52,764 nt of DNA from a bacterium (GTDB lineage: Bacteria; Zixibacteria; MSB-5A5; WJJR01). The notes under the pieces are model-generated. The model saw nothing but the letters and a program-made list of their open reading frames with translations, was not told where the DNA came from and ran no database searches. The stretch covers positions 1 to 52,764 of the forward strand of contig DATMBC010000047.1 in NCBI GenBank assembly GCA_035559435.1. Direction: 5' to 3'. The translations under genes were made by a program, and so were the position numbers. Shown piece after piece: positions 34,503 through 49,912 of this stretch (positions are counted from its first letter, which is position 1; every line of letters starts with the position of its first letter).

Positions 34503-36758
34503 TCAGAGTTGCGCGCCTCCCAGCTTGGCGATCTCATCCAGCAGCAATTTGGCGGTCGCGTTGCCCGGATCGATGGCCATCACCTGCCGCAGGTGCTCCT
34601 GCGCGGCGTTGAACTTCTGCTGGCGCAGATAGGCCGCCGCGAGGTTGATCCGCACCGCCACCGCCTGCGGCTGCCAGAAGACCGCCCGCTCCAGATGCGG
34701 GATGGCCTCCGCGGTGCGCTGCATTTTCAGGTAGAGCGCGCCGATGTTGGCCTGCAGGATGGCGTGGTCGGGGCAATGTTGCAGCCCGGTGACCAGGAGC
34801 GACTCGGCCATGACGAGATTATTGACGCTCGCGTAGATAATTGCCAGCGCGCTGTAGGCGCTGGCGAAGCCCGAGTCGGCCTGGATCGCCTGCATGTAGT
34901 AGCCGACCGCGGCCCCGTTGTCCTTGCGCGCCGCGGCGATGTCGCCGAGATTGAGATAGGGGTGCGGCAGCTTGGGATTGTGCCTGATCGCGGTGCGGAA
35001 GGAGCCCGCCGCCAGGGCAGTGTCGCCCTGTCCGAGGTAGGCCAGACCGATGTTGTTGTAGGCCTCGGCGTCATTCTGACGGTGGCGCAGGTAGGAGAAC
35101 GACGTCGCCACCGCCGAATCATACGAGCCGACACGCACCAGCGCGTAGGCGAGGTTCTTGCGCGATGCCAGGTGGTTCGGCTCGGCCTCCAGCGCCTTCT
35201 CGTACTCTCCGATCGCCCCTTCGTAGTCGCCCTTGCGCTCAAAACTCAGTGCCATCTGGTAATGGAGAAAGGCCGGGTTGCTCAACGTCTTTTCGACCGT
35301 GCGTTGGTTCAACGCCACGATCAGGACGACCAGAATCAGCGCGGGGAGCAGAAGTGTCTTCAGCGCGCGCTGACGGATCGCCTCCGCAAATTGCATCGCC
35401 GCCGCCGCCGCGCACACCGTCATCACCGGCACCACCGGCAACCGGTGGCGCGCGGTTGCCAAAAACAGAATCACGGTCACCGCGTACAGCGCGACGAAGG
35501 CCACCAGCGGACGGGTCTGCGGCGACCTGCGCCAGGCCAACAGCAGCCCCAATAGCCCCAGCGGCGCGATCAGGCCGAAGGGGATGTAGATAAGCGGCCG
35601 GCTGATCAGCCAGTTGAGGAACAGCGAGTACGTCGAGTAGGCGTAGATGTCGGTCTGATCCGAGACCTCGAATCCGCCGAGGAAATACCAGGTCTTCTTC
35701 AACCAGCCGCCGATCGCCCGGACGGGATGGCTGAGAATCCAGTCCCAGGTCCGGGATGTCCAAAACGAGGAAATCTCCGAAGGACGCAGCGTGCGGCCCG
35801 CCAGGGAGGAGGCCACCGAATCGGTGGTGGAGACAAACTCGTTCCACTCGACCGACTCGTCGAGCGTCACTTCCGGCATCTGCATCGTCAGTCCGTCAGC
35901 GTTGGGGTTGTTCCCCAGCCAGAAGTTGACTCCGCCCTGATAGGAGATGAGCACCGGATCGCCGGCGACCACGATGTTGCGCACGGTGACCGGGACGATG
36001 GGGAGGAGCACGCCGGCCGTGAGGATGGCCGCCGCCTGCGCCTTGCGCCAGAAGCTTCCGCCCGCCGCGGCCCCGCGGGGCCAGGCCCACCACCAGAACG
36101 CCGGCACCACCAGCAGGATGTTCGGACGGGCGATGGCAAAAAGCCCGATCACCACTCCGACCCCCAGCCAGCGGCCCATGCGCGGTGTCGGCTGCGATGA
36201 TTCCTCCATCGCCAGCCAGATTGCCCACAATCCCAGCGGCACCGCGATCACTTCGATCAGCAGTTCGGTCTCATAGTAGATCAGCGTGCCATAGAGGACG
36301 GCGGCGAAACCGGCGACCAAGCCAACACGGCGGCCGAAGCCCTTCTGGGCGATGAGGAATGTCAACCCGGCGGTCAGGCCGCCGATGATGGCCTGCAACA
36401 GCCGGATGGGCCAGAGTCCATCGCCGAAGATCTTCATCCACAACGCCAGCAGATACGGATACAGCGGCGCGCGGTAGAACACTTCGCTGCCCAGCCAGTC
36501 GCCGCCGGCGATCTGCTTGGCCCACAGATAATGCCAGCGCGAGTCGACGATCGGCTGGTCGAACGCCGGGTGATTGCCCGACAGCTGTAGGAGCACCAGC
36601 GCCCGCACGACAAAGGCCGCGCCGAGAATGATCCAAAACCATGCGGTATTGGAAAGCCCGCCGGGGGATGAGGAGGTCTTTGCCCAGGTGCGGGGATCGA
36701 ACCATGCTGTCATTCGCAGGGCCCGTGGCTGCCGGGCCGGGTGTTTTTGATCCGCCAT
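34503..36758 (-). CDS. GT-C/PMT-like membrane glycosyltransferase with long TPR tail
   Basis: 751 residues. The first half has about 11 membrane helices, and the first periplasmic loop (SGNHPAFDQPIVDSRWHY, then FYRAPLYPYLLAL) matches the PMT_2/ArnT-like pattern. Residues about 490-745 hold at least seven TPR units (GDYEGAIGEYEKALEAEPNH, NDAEAYNNIGLAYLGQGD, AYLRQQKFNAAQEHLRQVM). The fusion is reminiscent of exported protein O-glycosylation enzymes with TPR substrate contacts, which remains inference. The ATG at 36758 is seven bases from a perfect TATAAT on its strand and has no ribosome site, so the message may be leaderless. The 3' end lies six bases from the convergent GGDEF gene. Confidence 0.78.
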   Translation of the reverse strand: MADQKHPARQPRALRMTAWFDPRTWAKTSSSPGGLSNTAWFWIILGAAFVVRALVLLQLSGNHPAFDQPIVDSRWHYLWAKQIAGGDWLGSEVFYRAPLYPYLLALWMKIFGDGLWPIRLLQAIIGGLTAGLTFLIAQKGFGRRVGLVAGFAAVLYGTLIYYETELLIEVIAVPLGLWAIWLAMEESSQPTPRMGRWLGVGVVIGLFAIARPNILLVVPAFWWWAWPRGAAAGGSFWRKAQAAAILTAGVLLPIVPVTVRNIVVAGDPVLISYQGGVNFWLGNNPNADGLTMQMPEVTLDESVEWNEFVSTTDSVASSLAGRTLRPSEISSFWTSRTWDWILSHPVRAIGGWLKKTWYFLGGFEVSDQTDIYAYSTYSLFLNWLISRPLIYIPFGLIAPLGLLGLLLAWRRSPQTRPLVAFVALYAVTVILFLATARHRLPVVPVMTVCAAAAAMQFAEAIRQRALKTLLLPALILVVLIVALNQRTVEKTLSNPAFLHYQMALSFERKGDYEGAIGEYEKALEAEPNHLASRKNLAYALVRVGSYDSAVATSFSYLRHRQNDAEAYNNIGLAYLGQGDTALAAGSFRTAIRHNPKLPHPYLNLGDIAAARKDNGAAVGYYMQAIQADSGFASAYSALAIIYASVNNLVMAESLLVTGLQHCPDHAILQANIGALYLKMQRTAEAIPHLERAVFWQPQAVAVRINLAAAYLRQQKFNAAQEHLRQVMAIDPGNATAKLLLDEIAKLGGAQL

Positions 36759-36764
36759 AGGCTG

Positions 36765-36771
36765 TATTATA
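36765..36771. promoter_or_regulatory. Shared symmetric -10 element for two divergent genes
   Basis: The seven bases TATTATA contain TATTAT on the plus strand (36765-36770) and a perfect TATAAT on the minus strand (36771-36766). The plus -10 ends six bases before ATG 36777 of ecfT, and the minus -10 ends seven bases before ATG 36758 of the GT-C gene. The gap between both starts is only 18 bases, with no ribosome site for either. No good -35 boxes are visible. Confidence 0.5.
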
Positions 36772-36776
36772 CGCTA

Positions 36777-37613
36777 ATGGCAAGCCGTGCGACACTGGCC
36801 GCCGAGCCCCCGACCGATCGGCGAATGGCCCGGACCAACTCCCCGGAGCGCCGGGATCCGTGTGTGTGGCTGGCCGCGTATGCAAGCGCCATCGTCTGGA
36901 TCGGTCTGGCCACGGACGGGAAGGTCCTTCTGGGCTGGCTCTCGGCGTTGGCGCTGTTGCTGTTCGCCCAGGCGGCCCGGGGCCGGCTGGATTGGCGCGC
37001 GGTGAGACAGGTCTTCGTCTGGGTTATGGTTTCTGGCGCCCTGACCGTCTTGCTCTATTTGTTGTTGGGACCCGAGTCTGGCAGTGACGGCCTCCGACTC
37101 TGGGGCGTTGTGATCCCGCGGGAGCGGCTGGCGCTGGGCGCCGGAATGGGACTGCGGCTGGCGGCTTTAATCTGCGCGTCGGTTCTGCTGGTCACCGCTG
37201 TCGCGCCGTTGCGGTTGGCGGCGGGGGTGACCCGCTGGCTTTTGCCGCTGCGGCATCTCGGTCTGCCGGTGGCGCAGTTCTATTATCTCGCATTCTTTCT
37301 GGTGGCAATGGTCCCCAACTTCCTGAACGAATCCCGTCTGATACGTCTGGCGCAAAACTCTCGCGGCATCGGCGGCGGTGGTGGTCTGATCGCGCGCGCC
37401 CGGGCCTATCCGTCCTTGGTCGTTCCGGTCTTTGCCGCCGCGATCCGTCGCAGCGACGCCATCGCGTTGGTGCTCGCCTCGCGCGGCTTCGACACGGCCC
37501 GCATCCCGGCGGCCGTGCATGGCCTTCGTCTGGGAACCATCGATTACATCGGGTTGGGCCTGTTGGCGGCGGGGTGGATCGTCTGGATTCTGGCGCGGAG
37601 TCCCCTGGCATGA
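36777..37613 (+). CDS. ecfT: ECF transporter transmembrane protein EcfT (CbiQ-like)
   Basis: 278 residues with six or so membrane helices and, at the cytosolic end, the two Ala/Ser-Arg-Gly couplers typical of EcfT: QNSRGIG and VLASRGFD, which contact the EcfA ATPases. The start ATG 36777 follows a -10 by six bases; ATG 36825 would drop 16 residues and is an alternative. It overlaps truA by ATGA. The matching ATPases are encoded at 10822; a substrate-specific S protein is not in the window. Separation of T from A components is usual for group II ECF systems with shared modules, though there A and T are often still together. Confidence 0.88.
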   Translation: MASRATLAAEPPTDRRMARTNSPERRDPCVWLAAYASAIVWIGLATDGKVLLGWLSALALLLFAQAARGRLDWRAVRQVFVWVMVSGALTVLLYLLLGPESGSDGLRLWGVVIPRERLALGAGMGLRLAALICASVLLVTAVAPLRLAAGVTRWLLPLRHLGLPVAQFYYLAFFLVAMVPNFLNESRLIRLAQNSRGIGGGGGLIARARAYPSLVVPVFAAAIRRSDAIALVLASRGFDTARIPAAVHGLRLGTIDYIGLGLLAAGWIVWILARSPLA

Positions 37614-38374
37614 GGTATCGTCTCGACGTCGCCTACCATGGCCGCGACTTTCACGGTTGGCAGAAGCAACCGGGTCTGCGCACGGTGCAGGGCGAGCTGG
37701 AAGTGTGGCTGTCGCGCTTCCTCGGGGACCGGGAAGAAGTGGCGCTCACCGGCGCCGGACGCACCGACACCGGCGTGCATGCCCTGGCGTTGCCGGCGCA
37801 CTTCGATTGGCCCGAACCGATCGACACCGTGGCGCTGCATCACCGCCTGCGCGTGGCGCTGCCGCATGATCTGGCGATTCTATCCTTCCATCGCGTCGCC
37901 GATGACTTCCATGCCCGCTATTCCGCCATCGCCCGCCGCTATGTCTACCGGGTCCGGCGCGGCGCCTGGCCCTTCAATCGCGATCGCGACTGGCAGGTGC
38001 ATGGCGAACTGGCAATCGACCGTCTCCATGCCTGCGCGGCGATCATTCGCGGCACGCAGGATTTCTCCGGCTTCTGCCGGGCGCTGTCGCTGAAGGAAAA
38101 CAATCGCTGTAGCGTGACTCACTCCGAGTGGCGCACCGAGGGCGACAACCTTACCTACCGGATCCGCGCCGACCGGTTCCTTCACCAAATGGTGCGGCTG
38201 ATCGTCGGCACCAGCGTCGCGGTGGCGCGCGGACAGGGAACACCGGAACGCCTCCGCGAGATTCTGACCGCCGGCGATGTCACCCTCTGCGGCGATGCGG
38301 CGCCGCCGCACGGTTTGACGCTGGAGGCGGTTGAATACCCGGACGGCGTCGGCGAGCCACTCGATTTCGATTGA
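37610..38374 (+). CDS. truA: tRNA pseudouridine(38-40) synthase TruA
   Basis: Isomerises uridine in the anticodon arm. The 254-residue protein carries RYRLDVAYHGRDFHGWQKQP, the catalytic Asp in GRTDTGVHA, and DFSGFCRALS, DRFLHQMVRLIVGT. The ATG overlaps the ecfT stop (ATGA), so translation is probably coupled, as in Firmicutes where truA follows ecfT. The 54 bases to the transaldolase hold a short palindrome (TTCTTAAGAA), which may be incidental. Confidence 0.95.
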   Translation: MRYRLDVAYHGRDFHGWQKQPGLRTVQGELEVWLSRFLGDREEVALTGAGRTDTGVHALALPAHFDWPEPIDTVALHHRLRVALPHDLAILSFHRVADDFHARYSAIARRYVYRVRRGAWPFNRDRDWQVHGELAIDRLHACAAIIRGTQDFSGFCRALSLKENNRCSVTHSEWRTEGDNLTYRIRADRFLHQMVRLIVGTSVAVARGQGTPERLREILTAGDVTLCGDAAPPHGLTLEAVEYPDGVGEPLDFD

Positions 38375-38428
38375 ATCGGGCGCCCCGACGTGCCTTTCTT
38401 AAGAATCTGAACCGACCAAGGAGGAACC

Positions 38429-39100
38429 GTGAAGATTTTTCTTGATACCGCCAGTGTCGACGAAATCCGCGAGGCGGCCAGTTGGGGCATTCTCGATGGC
38501 GTGACCACCAATCCCTCGCTGGTTTCCAAGGAGGGACGCAGCTTCGACGATATCCTGCATGAGATCGTCCAGATCGTCAAGGGGCCGGTCTCGGCCGAAG
38601 TGGTCGCCGAGCAGGCCGAGGATATGGTCGAGCAGGGGATTCGTTTGGCCGCCATTGCCCCCAACATCACAGTCAAGGTTCCGATGACCGCCGAGGGGTT
38701 GAAGGCGATCCGGCAGTTAAGCGACCGCGAGATCAGCACCAATTGCACCCTGATCTTCAACGCCACCCAGGGGCTGTTGGCCGCCAAGGCGGGCGCCACC
38801 TTCGTTTCGCCCTTTGTTGGCCGACTGGATGACATCGGCCATGACGGCATGGAGCTGGTCAGCCAGTTGGTGACGATCTTTGACAACTACGCGCTCTCCA
38901 CCGAGGTCCTGGCGGCGTCGATTCGTCATCCGCTCCACGTCGTCGAGGCGGCGCTGCGCGGCGCCGATGTCGCCACGATCCCGTTTAAGATTCTCCAGCA
39001 GATCATTAAGCACCCGCTGACCGATCTGGGCAACGCGGCGTTCAACCGCGACTGGCAGAAGCTCTCGCCGGACCAACGCAAGGCCGCGGCGCGCGTGTAG
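38429..39100 (+). CDS. Transaldolase / fructose-6-phosphate aldolase-like (TalC type)
   Basis: Small 223-residue class I aldolase: [25 protein letters not shown], the Schiff-base lysine in [13 protein letters not shown], and [19 protein letters not shown]. These place it in the transaldolase subfamily of about 215-220 residues (TalC/FSA); the two activities cannot be told apart by eye. The GTG start at 38429 has AAGGAGGA right upstream. It is followed by purB after 19 bases, then psd and pssA in the same direction. Confidence 0.93.
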
Positions 39101-39119
39101 CGCCACACGGGGGCATCCG

Positions 39120-40415
39120 ATGATTGACCGCTACACACTCCCCGCCATGGGGGAATTGTGGTCGGAGGAGAACAAGTTCCGCGTCTGGCTGGAGATCGAG
39201 TTGCTGGCCTCCGAACGTCTGGCGCAGATGGGGCTCATCCCCAGGGGCGCCCCGGCCCGCATGCGCCGCCGCGCGCGCTTCTCGGTCAAACGCATCGAAG
39301 CGATTGAACGCCAAACCCGCCACGATGTCATTGCCTTCACCAAGGACGTTGGCTCGCATCTGGGCGCCGATGAGAAGTATTTGCACTATGGCCTGACCTC
39401 CTCCGATGTCGTCGACACCGCGCTGTCGGTGCGGATGGTGCAGGCGGGCGCCTTGTTGCTCGATGCGCTGGAGCCCAGCATCAAACGCACCGCGGCATTG
39501 GCGCGCAAATACATTGACACGCCGATCGCCGGACGCACCCACGGGGTCTTCGCCGAGCCGACATCGGCCGGGCTTAAGTTCGCGCTCTGGCATGCGGACT
39601 TGAAGCGCGGCCGCCGGCGGCTGAAGTCGGCGATCCACTCGGTGGCTGTCGGCAAGATCTCCGGCGCGGTTGGCAATTTCGTTCACCTCGATCCCTCGGT
39701 CGAAGCGTATGTCTGCCGCAAACTCGGTCTGCGCCCCGCGCCGATTTCGACCCAGGTGCTCCAGCGCGACCGTCACGCCGAATACATCTTCGCCATCGCG
39801 GCCCTCGGCGCCACCTGCGAGAAGATCGCGCAGGAAATCCGGCTCTTGCACCGCACCGAAACCGGCGAGATGACCGAAGGGTTCGCCAAGGGGCAGCGAG
39901 GCTCTTCGGCCATGCCGCACAAGAAGAACCCGATCCTCTGCGAGCGCATCTGCGGGATCGCCCGCCTTCTGCGCGCCCATGTCATCCCGGCGCTGGAGGA
40001 TGTCGCGCTCTGGCATGAACGCGACATCTCGCACTCCTCGGTTGAACGCGTGATCATTCCCGATGCCACGATCGCGCTGGACTATCAGCTGTATCTGCTC
40101 GATCAGGTGCTCACGCAGTTGGGGGTCCACCCGGAACGGATGCGGCAGAATCTTCAGCGGCTGGGGTCGGCGGTCTTTTCGCAGCGCCTGTTGCTGGCGT
40201 TGTCCGAGAAGATCGGCTCCCGCGACAAATCCTACACCATCGTGCAGCGGCTGGCGCTGGAGGCCGACGGCGACTCGACCTTCGAGGAACGCGTCCGCGC
40301 TGACCAGTTGGTGCAATCGCACCTGACAACGCGGCAGCTCGACGAGATTTTCGATGTCCGCTACTTCCTGCGCCGTTCACGGCAGATTCTCAAACGCGCG
40401 CTGGCGGAGAAATAG
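39120..40415 (+). CDS. purB: Adenylosuccinate lyase
   Basis: Two reactions of purine synthesis: cleavage of SAICAR and of adenylosuccinate. 431 residues with family markers: RYTLPAMGELWSEENKF, HYGLTSSDVVDTALS, GRTHGVFAEP and the flexible catalytic loop KGQRGSSAMPHKKNPILCERICG-region (SSAMPHKKNP). ATG at 39120 follows a purine-rich stretch GGGGGCA. It lies in an operon with the transaldolase and phospholipid genes; purS and purQ are 4 kb further on in a separate transcript. Confidence 0.96.
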   Translation: MIDRYTLPAMGELWSEENKFRVWLEIELLASERLAQMGLIPRGAPARMRRRARFSVKRIEAIERQTRHDVIAFTKDVGSHLGADEKYLHYGLTSSDVVDTALSVRMVQAGALLLDALEPSIKRTAALARKYIDTPIAGRTHGVFAEPTSAGLKFALWHADLKRGRRRLKSAIHSVAVGKISGAVGNFVHLDPSVEAYVCRKLGLRPAPISTQVLQRDRHAEYIFAIAALGATCEKIAQEIRLLHRTETGEMTEGFAKGQRGSSAMPHKKNPILCERICGIARLLRAHVIPALEDVALWHERDISHSSVERVIIPDATIALDYQLYLLDQVLTQLGVHPERMRQNLQRLGSAVFSQRLLLALSEKIGSRDKSYTIVQRLALEADGDSTFEERVRADQLVQSHLTTRQLDEIFDVRYFLRRSRQILKRALAEK

Positions 40416-40423
40416 GGGAGGGG

Positions 40424-41053
40424 ATGGCGCGCGACGGCTGGCTCTTTGTGGGTCCCGCGCTAGCGGTGTTGGCCGTCGGTGGGATTCTCTGGGTGGCCGG
40501 CGCGCGGCTCGGCGGCGCGTTGATCGCGCTTTTGGGCGGGGCGGCGGCGCTGGCCTTCGGCTACTTTTTCCGCGACCCCGACCGTCGTCCCCCCAACGAT
40601 CCCGAGGCGGTGGTGGCCACCGCGGATGGACGGATTGTGGTGGTCGGACCGCATCCCGACGGCGGCACCCAGATCCATACGTTTCTGTCCGTTCTCGACG
40701 TCCATGTCAACCGCGCGCCCGTATCAGGGGTGGTGCGCGAGTCCGTCCACCATCCCGGCAAGTTCGGGCTCGCCTGGAAGGACGAGGCCGGGTCGCAGAA
40801 CGAGCGGCACGACCTGGTGATTGAGTCGCCGCGCGGGACGATTCGCTCGGCGCAGATCGCCGGAATTCTCGCACGACGTATTATCTGCACCCCGCAGGTG
40901 GGCGATACATTAAGACAGGGGGACCGGATCGGGATGATCCGCTTCGGCTCGCGCGTCGAGGTGATCGTGCCCGACGGGTTCGCGCCGACCGTCAAAGTCG
41001 GCGATCGTGTCAAAGCCGGCGAAACGGTGATCGCGCGCCGGCTGGAGAATTGA
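40424..41053 (+). CDS. psd: Phosphatidylserine decarboxylase (short type)
   Basis: Makes phosphatidylethanolamine. 209 residues: N-terminal membrane segment (about 7-45), FFRDPDRRPP, FLSVLDVHVNRAPVSG, and the self-cleavage/pyruvoyl site in IRFGSRVEVIVP, where Ser of the GS pair becomes the pyruvoyl group. It is the short, archaeal-type Psd typical of genes paired with pssA. Start lies eight bases after purB, pssA follows after 25 bases, so substrate maker and consumer are co-transcribed. Confidence 0.94.
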   Translation: MARDGWLFVGPALAVLAVGGILWVAGARLGGALIALLGGAAALAFGYFFRDPDRRPPNDPEAVVATADGRIVVVGPHPDGGTQIHTFLSVLDVHVNRAPVSGVVRESVHHPGKFGLAWKDEAGSQNERHDLVIESPRGTIRSAQIAGILARRIICTPQVGDTLRQGDRIGMIRFGSRVEVIVPDGFAPTVKVGDRVKAGETVIARRLEN

Positions 41054-41078
41054 GCTTATCGGTTTCCGAGCGCCCGCC

Positions 41079-41867
41079 ATGCCCGAACACGACGACCGCC
41101 ATGTCCGCAACTTCCGCGGGATCTTCCCGGGGATGTTCACGATGGGGAACCTCTTCTGCGGGTTCCTGTCGATTCTCTCGTCGATGGACGGCGAATGGCG
41201 GCATGCCTGCCAGTTCATTCTGCTGGGATTCTTCCTCGATGGCCTCGATGGAATCGTGGCGCGGGTCTCCCGCGGGGCCACCCGGTTCGGTGTCGAACTC
41301 GATTCCTTGGCCGACCTGATCACCTTTGGCCTGGCACCGGCGATTATGGTCTATTCGTTCCGTCTGAAGGACCTGGGCAAATGGGGCTGGGTGCTCGGCT
41401 TCGTGTTCGTAATGTGCGGCGCGTTCCGGCTGGCGCGCTACAACCTCGGCGCCAAGACCGGGCCGCGCGAGGGTTTTGAGGGGTTGCCGATTCCCGCCGC
41501 CGCCTCGCTGCTGGTGTCCTACACGCTGTTTAGCTTCGAACTGTGGGGCGAGCTGAAGTATGTGCGACTGCTGATTGCGATGACCCTCGTCACGTCGGGA
41601 TTGATGGTGTCGACGATTCCGTACGAGGACAAGCCCACCAGCTGGCGATCGCTTAAGGACAGAATCAAGTTTCTCTATCTCCTGATCGGTGTGATTGCGG
41701 TGCTCATCGACATGTCCAAGACCGCGTTTCCCTTGGTGCTGGGCTATGTCGCCTACGGCCTTGTCCGCGAGATCATCGAGACCGTCTCCAACGGCGGCTC
41801 GCTGGAGCGTCCGTTGCGCCTGCCGCGCCGCCGCCGCCAGGTCGAGCATAAAGAACCCTGGCAGTAA
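41079..41867 (+). CDS. pssA: CDP-diacylglycerol-serine O-phosphatidyltransferase
   Basis: Makes phosphatidylserine from CDP-diacylglycerol, feeding Psd upstream. 262 residues with about eight hydrophobic helices and the CDP-alcohol phosphotransferase motif DGLDGIVARVSRGATRFG followed by ELDSLADLITFG, which together give D-G-x2-A-R-x8-G-x3-D-x3-D. The start ATG 41079 is preceded by GAGC. It converges on the methyltransferase gene with two bases between stop codons, leaving no room for a terminator. Confidence 0.95.
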   Translation: MPEHDDRHVRNFRGIFPGMFTMGNLFCGFLSILSSMDGEWRHACQFILLGFFLDGLDGIVARVSRGATRFGVELDSLADLITFGLAPAIMVYSFRLKDLGKWGWVLGFVFVMCGAFRLARYNLGAKTGPREGFEGLPIPAAASLLVSYTLFSFELWGELKYVRLLIAMTLVTSGLMVSTIPYEDKPTSWRSLKDRIKFLYLLIGVIAVLIDMSKTAFPLVLGYVAYGLVREIIETVSNGGSLERPLRLPRRRRQVEHKEPWQ

Positions 41868-47348: not shown

Positions 47349-49886
47349 TTACCGCCGGAAGTTCTTCGCCCCTGCCATGTCCTCGACAAACGCTTCGAGG
47401 TCTTTGCCCATCTCTTCGGCGGTCTGGTAGCGCTGGCGCGGGTCCTTGGCCAGCGCCTTGTTCACGACGAAATCAAATAGCCCCGGAATCACCGGATCGT
47501 GTTTCGACGGCGGCGCCGGGTTCGACTGCGTGATGGAGTAGATCAAAGCCGAGATGTTCGGTCCGTCGAACGGGCGGCGGCGAGTGAGGACTTCGTAGGC
47601 CACCACGCCGAGGGAGAACAGGTCGCAGCGGCGGTCGACCGCCTCGCCGCGCAGTTGTTCCGGCGCGATGTAATACGGCGTGCCCATGGCGATGCCGGTC
47701 TGGGTCATCGACATTGCGCCCGATTCAAACCGCGCGATGCCGAAGTCGGTCACCTTTACGTTGAAGTCATCGAGCACCATGATATTGGCCGGTTTGATGT
47801 CGCGGTGCACGATGCCCATCTTGTGCGCATAGTCCAGCGCGCCGCAGACCTGGTGCAGCATCTTGGCGACGATGCGGAAGTTCATCACCTGCTGCTTGCG
47901 GATGAGCGCCTCCAGCGTCGTGCCCTCGAGAAACTCCATCGCGATGTAGTCGATGTCGCCCTCGGTCCCGACGTCGTAAATCGTCACGATGTTCGGGTGC
48001 GACAGTTTGCCGGCGGCCTTGGCCTCGCGCACCAGCCGCTCGCGCAACTCCATCGTCTGCGCCGGGTTCATGCCGCCGGTGGTGCGGATGGTTTTGAGCG
48101 CCACCATACGGTCGATCGCCGGGTCCAGCCCCTTGAACACCGTGCCCATCGCTCCCTGGCCGATCACTTCCAGAATCTCATAGCGCCCCAGCCGCTTGAG
48201 GCCGGACATGTTCGGGCCCGACTGGGTCGCGAACGCCTCCGGCCCTGACGCCTGTAACTCAATCGGCTCGGGACGGTCAAGATCGATCGGCACCGGCGAA
48301 CTTGTGCGCGTGCTCGTGTGGCCTTCCACCAGCGGGACATCGCCGTCCATCCCCGGCTCAAAGGACGGTGTGAGCGTGATACCGGCGTTGAACTGTCCTC
48401 CCGACGGCGTCGCCTCGCGCCGCTCAGGCGGCGGGGCAGGGAAGGGGGTGCCGCTGCCCGGCGAAGCGTCCATGCTGACCGTCGGCGCTGCGGATACCTC
48501 CGGCGTCGGCTCCGGCTCGGCCGGGATGACCCGGTAGGCGCCCGATGTCGAGGCCGGCTTTTCGCCCGGGATGGGGGCCCGCTTGACCGGGCGGGTCAAG
48601 GCCACCTTCTCGTTGTTGGGTTTCACAAATGGCGCAAACGCCAGGAACAGCAGGATCTCCAGTGTGGGGTAAAGCGTGTTGGTCACCAGCTTGAGCGATT
48701 GATAAAGCACAAAGTTCACGTTCAAGAAGAGCGCGGCGAAGACCACCAGCACGATCACCCGGCTGACCAGACTCACCCGCGGCAGCACCACGGCCGCAAA
48801 CACCCCGATCCCAATCAGGATGAGCAAGTCGAGAAACGTCGAGAATGTCACGGTGGTGATATAGCGTCCGGCCAGAATGTTGGCGGTCACCGTGGCCAGC
48901 TTCTCGGCGCGCGGGAAATCATCGGAAGCCGACGTGCGCAACGTGGTGCCGTAACCCGAGGCGGTCACACCCACCACCACGATCTTGTCGGTCAGACCCT
49001 GCAGATCATCCGACCCCTCCAGCACTTTCGCCGCCGAAATCGAACGGCAGGTCCCGGCGGGCCCGCGGTAATCGATGCGCAGCATCCCGCCCTCGTCGGT
49101 CGGAATGGTGCGTGCCGCCATCCGCACCGACTCGCCCGGCTCGATTTTCACCTGCAGACGATCGGCGCCGGCGGCGGCGCGCGCCAACTGCAGCGCCATC
49201 GACGGGTAGTAATGTCCCTCGTAATTGACCACCAGCGGGTCGCGGCGCACCTTGCCATCGACATCCTGCCAGGTGTTCACATGCCCCAGCCCCCAGGCGG
49301 CCCGGCAGGCCTCGGCGTAGGGGATTGTGGCGTTCAGTGATTGCGGATAGGGGAAATCCAAAAGCCGCGCGCCCTCGTCGATCACCACCAGACTCGACTT
49401 CGACACATAATCCGGCGCGGTCTGCGTAAAACGGCCGTCCTCCGCCAGCGTAAACCGCAGCGGCAGCACCACGTTGCCGGCGCGGTGAATCATGTCCGCC
49501 AAAAAGAGATTGCCTTGGGGATCTTCCATCAGATCGGATGGCAGCTCCACATCCAGCCCGATGGCCTTGGGACGGTATTCGGACAGCATACCGACCAGAT
49601 AGCCGATGCGTTCGGAATCCCAGGGCCAGCGCCCCAGTTTGTTCACCGCGTCATCGTCGATGTTGACCACCACCACTTCGGAGGGTGGGTCGGTCTTGCG
49701 CCCCAGCGACACCATCGTGTCCTGGATGCCCAGTTCCAGCGATGCCAGCCAGTGGTGATTGTCCATGTAGAGCACGATCACCAGCAGCGTGATCAGGCCA
49801 TAGAGCATAAACGGCCCGAAACGCCGCAGCAGCGTGTTCTCCTGGCGGAAATGCATGCCGTTGAATTTGGACGGTGCGCTTTTCAT
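47349..49886 (-). CDS. Transmembrane Ser/Thr protein kinase with extracytoplasmic CHASE2 sensor
   Basis: 845 residues. One membrane helix (about 25-41), a CHASE2 domain (about 42-345, with VVVVNIDDDAVNKLGRWPW and PKAIGLDVELP), three further helices (about 350-421), a disordered Pro/Ser/Thr/Glu linker (422-566), then a Hanks-type kinase (568-835): IGQGAMGTVFKG, Lys598 in VALK, HRDIKPAN with catalytic Asp696, DFG at 714-716, APEQLRG and the C-lobe DLFSLGVV. All active residues are present, so phosphotransfer is expected. CHASE2 senses an unknown outside signal. It lies 26 bases after the twin-FHA gene on the same strand, a classic kinase and phosphothreonine-reader pair. Confidence 0.95.
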   Translation of the reverse strand: MKSAPSKFNGMHFRQENTLLRRFGPFMLYGLITLLVIVLYMDNHHWLASLELGIQDTMVSLGRKTDPPSEVVVVNIDDDAVNKLGRWPWDSERIGYLVGMLSEYRPKAIGLDVELPSDLMEDPQGNLFLADMIHRAGNVVLPLRFTLAEDGRFTQTAPDYVSKSSLVVIDEGARLLDFPYPQSLNATIPYAEACRAAWGLGHVNTWQDVDGKVRRDPLVVNYEGHYYPSMALQLARAAAGADRLQVKIEPGESVRMAARTIPTDEGGMLRIDYRGPAGTCRSISAAKVLEGSDDLQGLTDKIVVVGVTASGYGTTLRTSASDDFPRAEKLATVTANILAGRYITTVTFSTFLDLLILIGIGVFAAVVLPRVSLVSRVIVLVVFAALFLNVNFVLYQSLKLVTNTLYPTLEILLFLAFAPFVKPNNEKVALTRPVKRAPIPGEKPASTSGAYRVIPAEPEPTPEVSAAPTVSMDASPGSGTPFPAPPPERREATPSGGQFNAGITLTPSFEPGMDGDVPLVEGHTSTRTSSPVPIDLDRPEPIELQASGPEAFATQSGPNMSGLKRLGRYEILEVIGQGAMGTVFKGLDPAIDRMVALKTIRTTGGMNPAQTMELRERLVREAKAAGKLSHPNIVTIYDVGTEGDIDYIAMEFLEGTTLEALIRKQQVMNFRIVAKMLHQVCGALDYAHKMGIVHRDIKPANIMVLDDFNVKVTDFGIARFESGAMSMTQTGIAMGTPYYIAPEQLRGEAVDRRCDLFSLGVVAYEVLTRRRPFDGPNISALIYSITQSNPAPPSKHDPVIPGLFDFVVNKALAKDPRQRYQTAEEMGKDLEAFVEDMAGAKNFRR

Positions 49887-49912
49887 AGGGATGTCCGCGG
49901 TTTGGCCTCGTG

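Follow-up and report, generated by a model that had tools for sequence, protein, structure and literature searches.

The window, i.e., the whole 52.8 kb stretch of DNA that we analysed and to which all position numbers refer, is carried by genome G000 and contains two divergent genes with a very short gap between their start codons. Direct reading of the sequence gives CAT at 36756-36758, the 18-nt spacer AGGCTGTATTATACGCTA at 36759-36776 and ATG at 36777, which bears out the 18 bases counted by the first-pass annotation between the minus-strand ATG 36758 and the plus-strand ATG 36777. Each ATG begins a long frame (751 aa on the minus strand and 278 aa on the plus strand), and the features of the locus are as follows, where N6, N7, etc. 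give the number of bases between a -10 hexamer and the start codon.

34503..36758, minus strand: GT-C glycosyltransferase (PMT_2) with C-terminal TPR repeats
36742..36747, plus strand: -35 position at spacing 17, TGTTTT, a poor TTGACA match
36758..36759, minus strand: predicted GT-C transcription start from geometry, T36759 if strict and A36758 by purine preference
36765..36771, both strands: near-palindromic 7-nt core TATTATA, a likely symmetric -10 common to both directions, invariant in six family genomes
36765..36770, plus strand: -10 hexamer TATTAT, N6 (ACGCTA) to ATG 36777; +1 = 36777 puts T at -12, A at -11 and T at -7
36766..36771, minus strand: -10 hexamer TATAAT, N7 (ACAGCCT) to ATG 36758; an N7 start codon is also found in G001, G002, G005 and G006
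36777, plus strand: transcription start of the ecfT run as predicted from geometry, the A of ATG
36777..37613, plus strand: EcfT/CbiQ-type transporter subunit (ecfT), first gene of a tight run
36789..36794, minus strand: -35 position at spacing 17, TGTCGC, a poor TTGACA match
36825..36827, plus strand: internal ATG, a rival ecfT start; similar internal ATG/GTG codons lie near the DPR motif in relatives
37610..41867, plus strand: closely spaced genes after ecfT, i.e., truA (37610), fructose-6-phosphate aldolase/transaldolase (38429), purB (39120), psd (40424) and pssA (41079)

Since ecfT is followed by truA, the aldolase/transaldolase gene, purB, psd and pssA in such close succession, likely as one operon, the plus-strand promoter probably serves a run of six genes. 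Just before this promoter, within the part of the GT-C gene encoding the N-terminus, a terminator-like hairpin with a T run is present on the plus strand (36720-36738), though it could be due to chance.

The reading of the core as TATTAT on the plus and TATAAT on the minus strand, with 6 and 7 bases to the respective start codons, was confirmed. TATTATA at 36765-36771 is thus a single putative -10 that can be read on both strands with reciprocal -7T and -11A. The distance between its canonical +1 positions is 18 bp, compared to 19 bp between the A's of the two ATG codons. Symmetric -10 elements that fire in both directions are indeed established in bacteria, as the first-pass annotation had stated, with transcription start sites about 18 bp apart and -7T and -11A reciprocally paired (PMC10268837). 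The bidirectional class is defined by divergent start sites at a distance of 7-25 bp, usually 18, and the distance predicted here is 18-19 bp. On the minus side, the relatives likewise have a pyrimidine at the strict +1 position, followed by the A or G of the start codon. In G000 the -10 is strong while both -35 regions are weak, which explains why a consensus promoter scan of 36300-37300 returned nothing at a threshold of 9 of 12 matches. No RNA family was found in the window with Rfam, and the initial 50 nt of either message showed nothing out of the ordinary when folded as RNA.

TATTATA occurs once in the 52.8 kb window compared to a mean of 0.11 in shuffles (11 of 100 shuffles had one anywhere), and the pattern CAT-N-TATNATA-N-ATG has a single site in the 3.0 Mb genome, namely the GT-C/ecfT gap. 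The motif GTATTATA is present in only 6-12 copies per genome in the family. Gene-pair statistics for G000 were drawn from 625 kb of stretches with 473 genes, in which 46 divergent pairs were called; their gaps have a median of 280 nt and are shorter than 30 nt in just two pairs, and GT-C/ecfT alone has a TANNNTA at N6 from one start and N7 from the other. Among those CAY..TATNATA..RTG sites elsewhere in nine genomes for which DNA was fetched, none opened two long, well-scoring frames.

We located the divergent GT-C/ecfT pair in two genomes of the same genus (G001, G002), three of the same family (G004-G006) and two of the same order (G007, G008). Protein identity to the family members is 38-42% for the main copies of EcfT and 52-59% for GT-C, a distance at which spacers free of constraint would no longer be expected to look alike. 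Most columns neighbouring the core accordingly show pairwise identities of 0.1-0.6, while TATTATA is invariant in 6/6 family members, a comparison that covers only six genomes (G000, G001, G002, G004, G005 and G006) with G005 and G006 as close relatives. Of the same-order genomes, G007 has TATTATG and G008 lacks a clear core. In G000, G005 and G006, the two long frames both begin at N5-N7; in the latter two, GTG codons at N7 and N5 open frames of 755 aa and about 284 aa, and TTG-type -35 boxes give TTGACG-18-TATTAT in one direction and TTGCAA-18-TATAAT in the opposite one. The arrangement fails on one side in three genomes, i.e., for ecfT in G001 and G002 and for GT-C in G004. Because the core is conserved and fits the published bidirectional geometry, there is good support for a -10 that works in both directions, and GT-C and ecfT likely have this one -10 in common.

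The evidence for a leaderless start is strongest on the GT-C side, where TANNNT lies 5-9 nt before the start without a Shine-Dalgarno sequence, as in the TA-led leaderless genes described by Zheng et al. 2011 (PMC3160421). A start codon in the GT-C frame follows TATAAT at exactly N7 in five of the six family genomes (ATG in G000 and G001, GTG in G002, G005 and G006), and G004 seemingly lost it through an indel; under an independent-base model, the chance of an N7 start in 3/4 further lineages is about 1e-5. Beyond the family, an in-frame start preceded by TANNNT at N6-8 was seen in 15, from eight families, of the 22 GT-C homologues taken from other families of the class (loci L042-L063), which are best hits rather than proven orthologues and come in part from the same genus or family. 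Windows starting at N2 to N7, which overlap or adjoin the peak, gave 10-15/22, and those from N9 outward gave 0-6/22. Most of these 15 have a TTG-type -35 at 17 nt, with TTGACA at exactly this distance in six (G015, G029, G035, G040, G045 and G049) and a 5-of-6 match at 17-18 nt in three more. Codon statistics slightly prefer an internal GT-C start at 36713. Given the 15 homologues and their -35 boxes, the GT-C gene is very likely leaderless and would have been so since ancient times.

How common such starts are in these genomes can be gauged from their promoters. For TTGAC-type -35 elements followed by TANNNT, G000 shows a peak at a spacing of 17 (15 sites compared to 0-4 at most other spacings). 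The predicted +1 falls exactly on a candidate start codon in 3/20 cases in G000, 3/16 in G024 and 3/24 in G028, which makes this the commonest single distance in each of them; G023 and G004 show no peak of +1 at the start codon. Leaderless genes are thus a minority. A second peak in G000 at spacing 16, caused by a TTGACG-16-TACATT cluster, was rejected as a set of promoters since it is largely a repeat array. On contig C19 of this genome, a CRISPR-like array with a period of about 66 bp and the repeat GCTGGGGATTGACGACAATCGTCGCTTGAGTACATT was noted (L090:12839-13853).

On the ecfT side, in-frame starts follow TATTAT at N6 in G000 (ATG), N5 in G005/G006 (GTG), N9 in G004 (ATG) and N6 in G007 (GTG), and the chance of finding one near the core in 3/5 is about 0.003. 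From the element up to where ecfT becomes conserved, the G005 and G006 sequences differ without any indel or stop, with 4, 2 and 7 differences at codon positions 1, 2 and 3, a pattern suggestive of a coding extension of ecfT. Codon statistics slightly prefer a start further upstream, GTG 36741. In G001, an insertion with inverted-repeat-like sequence (L006) separates core and ecfT, leaving no near in-frame start; this genome also has a second, partial ecfT at a contig edge (C11). In G002 (L005), the ATG at N6 is out of the ecfT frame and opens a 17-codon frame that ends in TAATG on an internal ecfT ATG, possibly a leaderless leader peptide with coupled translation or else an assembly frameshift. 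On balance, ecfT is rather more probably leaderless than not. The first-pass claim that both genes lack a leader is thus strongly supported for GT-C, across the class, and more weakly for ecfT, whose start drifts between N5 and N9, is missing in G001 and G002, and competes with an internal ATG.

Because many ecfT genes have an ATG or GTG inside the frame close to the DPR motif, a leadered ecfT stays a candidate. The two-way -10 could then have a leaderless gene on the GT-C side alone, with ecfT starting internally (ATG 36825, leader of ca. 48 nt) or with an N-terminus that varies by species, which we regard as rather unlikely. Such a start would sit only a few residues before the DPR motif as in most relatives, it or a later one is all that G001 and G002 can use, and 36777-36824 has a neutral codon score (-0.98). 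However, no clear Shine-Dalgarno precedes 36825, in-frame N5-N9 starts recur in G004, G005/G006 and G007 at the low chance given above, and the differences in the G005/G006 extension fall mostly on third codon positions. It is less probable still that only the GT-C direction is a real promoter, with the plus-strand reading of the hexamer as its by-product and ecfT driven from elsewhere. The ancestral promoter does appear to be that of GT-C and the plus -35 is poor in G000, but G005/G006 have, in the plus direction, an extended TGC-TATTAT preceded by TTGACG at 18 nt, the scan of 36300-37300 gave no other consensus promoter, and the plus-side starts follow the position of the element.

The core might instead be the binding site of a dimeric regulator and no -10 at all, given that it is flanked by near-perfect arms of the palindrome CGTATTATACG in G001, G002 and G004. 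We consider this very improbable: conserved arms with recurrence at the genes of a regulon, as would mark an operator, were not what we found, since G000, G005, G006 and G007 lack the arms but have the TATTAT core and the start spacing, and the right arm is missing from the other GTATTATA sites that were sampled, which are intergenic and close to gene starts. Moreover, an N5-N7 spacing to the start codons on both sides is expected of a -10 and not of an operator. Binding by RNA polymerase accounts for conservation of the core, its symmetry and the start spacing together, which an operator does not.

We therefore favour, with moderate confidence, a single sigma-70-type bidirectional promoter with a leaderless GT-C gene and an ecfT gene that is leaderless or nearly so, a model built on the sequence, spacing, conservation and coding frames described above. 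RNA polymerase would load on the symmetric TATTATA either way, one orientation at a time. The leftward transcript would start at A36758 or one base before it and yield a leaderless mRNA for the GT-C/TPR protein; the rightward transcript would start at A36777 and yield an ecfT-truA-fsa-purB-psd-pssA mRNA on which ecfT, as the first gene, has little or no leader. The leaderless GT-C promoter would be the older part, with ecfT having come to abut GT-C in the window's family and to use the same -10.

The bidirectional promoters of Warman et al. 2021, as represented in PMC10268837 and PMC12825309, share with this locus the near-symmetric -10, the reciprocal -11A/-7T and the canonical 18 bp between start sites. 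Here, in contrast, both products are protein-coding and the predicted transcription starts fall on start codons, while PMC12825309 makes no mention of leaderless messages. In E. coli, 24% of the bidirectional promoters lie between divergent genes, and polymerase bound to a two-way promoter in one orientation blocks the other (PMC12825309). The suggestion at first pass that the arrangement ties the expression of the two genes is hence only half right: they would share one -10, but binding one way would prevent the other. Similarly, the overlapping divergent promoters of EcoRV CR/M have overlapping polymerase sites of which one excludes the other, with that pair being regulated by a C protein (PMC5333194). 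The TA-led genes of Zheng et al. likewise have TANNNT some 10-12 bp ahead of the start codon, with the difference that one hexamer would serve two genes here. The pairing of two leaderless genes had been called unusual, which is partly right; the adjacent and divergent Mycobacterium tuberculosis genes Rv1129c and prpD (Rv1130) have already been mapped as leaderless on both sides (PMC3898074), compared to predicted here, though the genes and the phylum differ. Our limited literature search found no paper in which two leaderless genes are served by a single symmetric -10. Bacteria are already known to have two-way promoters and, separately, leaderless genes, and GT-C/ecfT is a well-conserved further case.

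The more surprising part is the class-wide leaderless GT-C promoter rather than the pair sharing a -10. Elsewhere in the class, in G014, the GT-C gene is divergent from the ecfT-truA strand with genes for a subtilase, an M6 peptidase, a FUR-family protein and FeoB in between, and several other genomes have GT-C and ecfT similarly separated by several kilobases, while ecfT directly abuts GT-C in the window's family. Loss of the intervening genes, after which ecfT would have come under the GT-C promoter region, is the simplest scenario. More tentatively, the leaderless start of GT-C/TPR may be under selection across the class (in at least eight other families), and in the window's family the housekeeping run ecfT-truA-fsa-purB-psd-pssA may have been captured onto the same -10, competing with the membrane glycosyltransferase gene for the polymerase site and sharing leaderless translation.

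The locus would be a small, natural and conserved example of a single -10 hexamer that fixes where transcription and translation begin on either side, so that a single base-pair change at the reciprocal -11A/-7T should affect two genes. With leaderless genes otherwise in the minority, the class-wide GT-C promoter also makes it possible to test concretely whether selection for leaderless starts acts on individual genes.

Other short divergent gaps were seen in G000. One of 23 nt in the window (49886-49910), between genes for a CHASE2 kinase and a Dus family protein, has no visible -10. A 47-nt gap on contig C4 (L068:11013-11060) contains the symmetric GGTATACC, with a leaderless-looking TTGTCA-17-TACCAT-N6-GTG on the plus side and a Shine-Dalgarno leader on the minus side. 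Finally, a 56-nt gap on contig C9 (L073:1771-1827) has a central symmetric TATAATA at N25/N26 from both called starts and is likely a two-way promoter with leaders.
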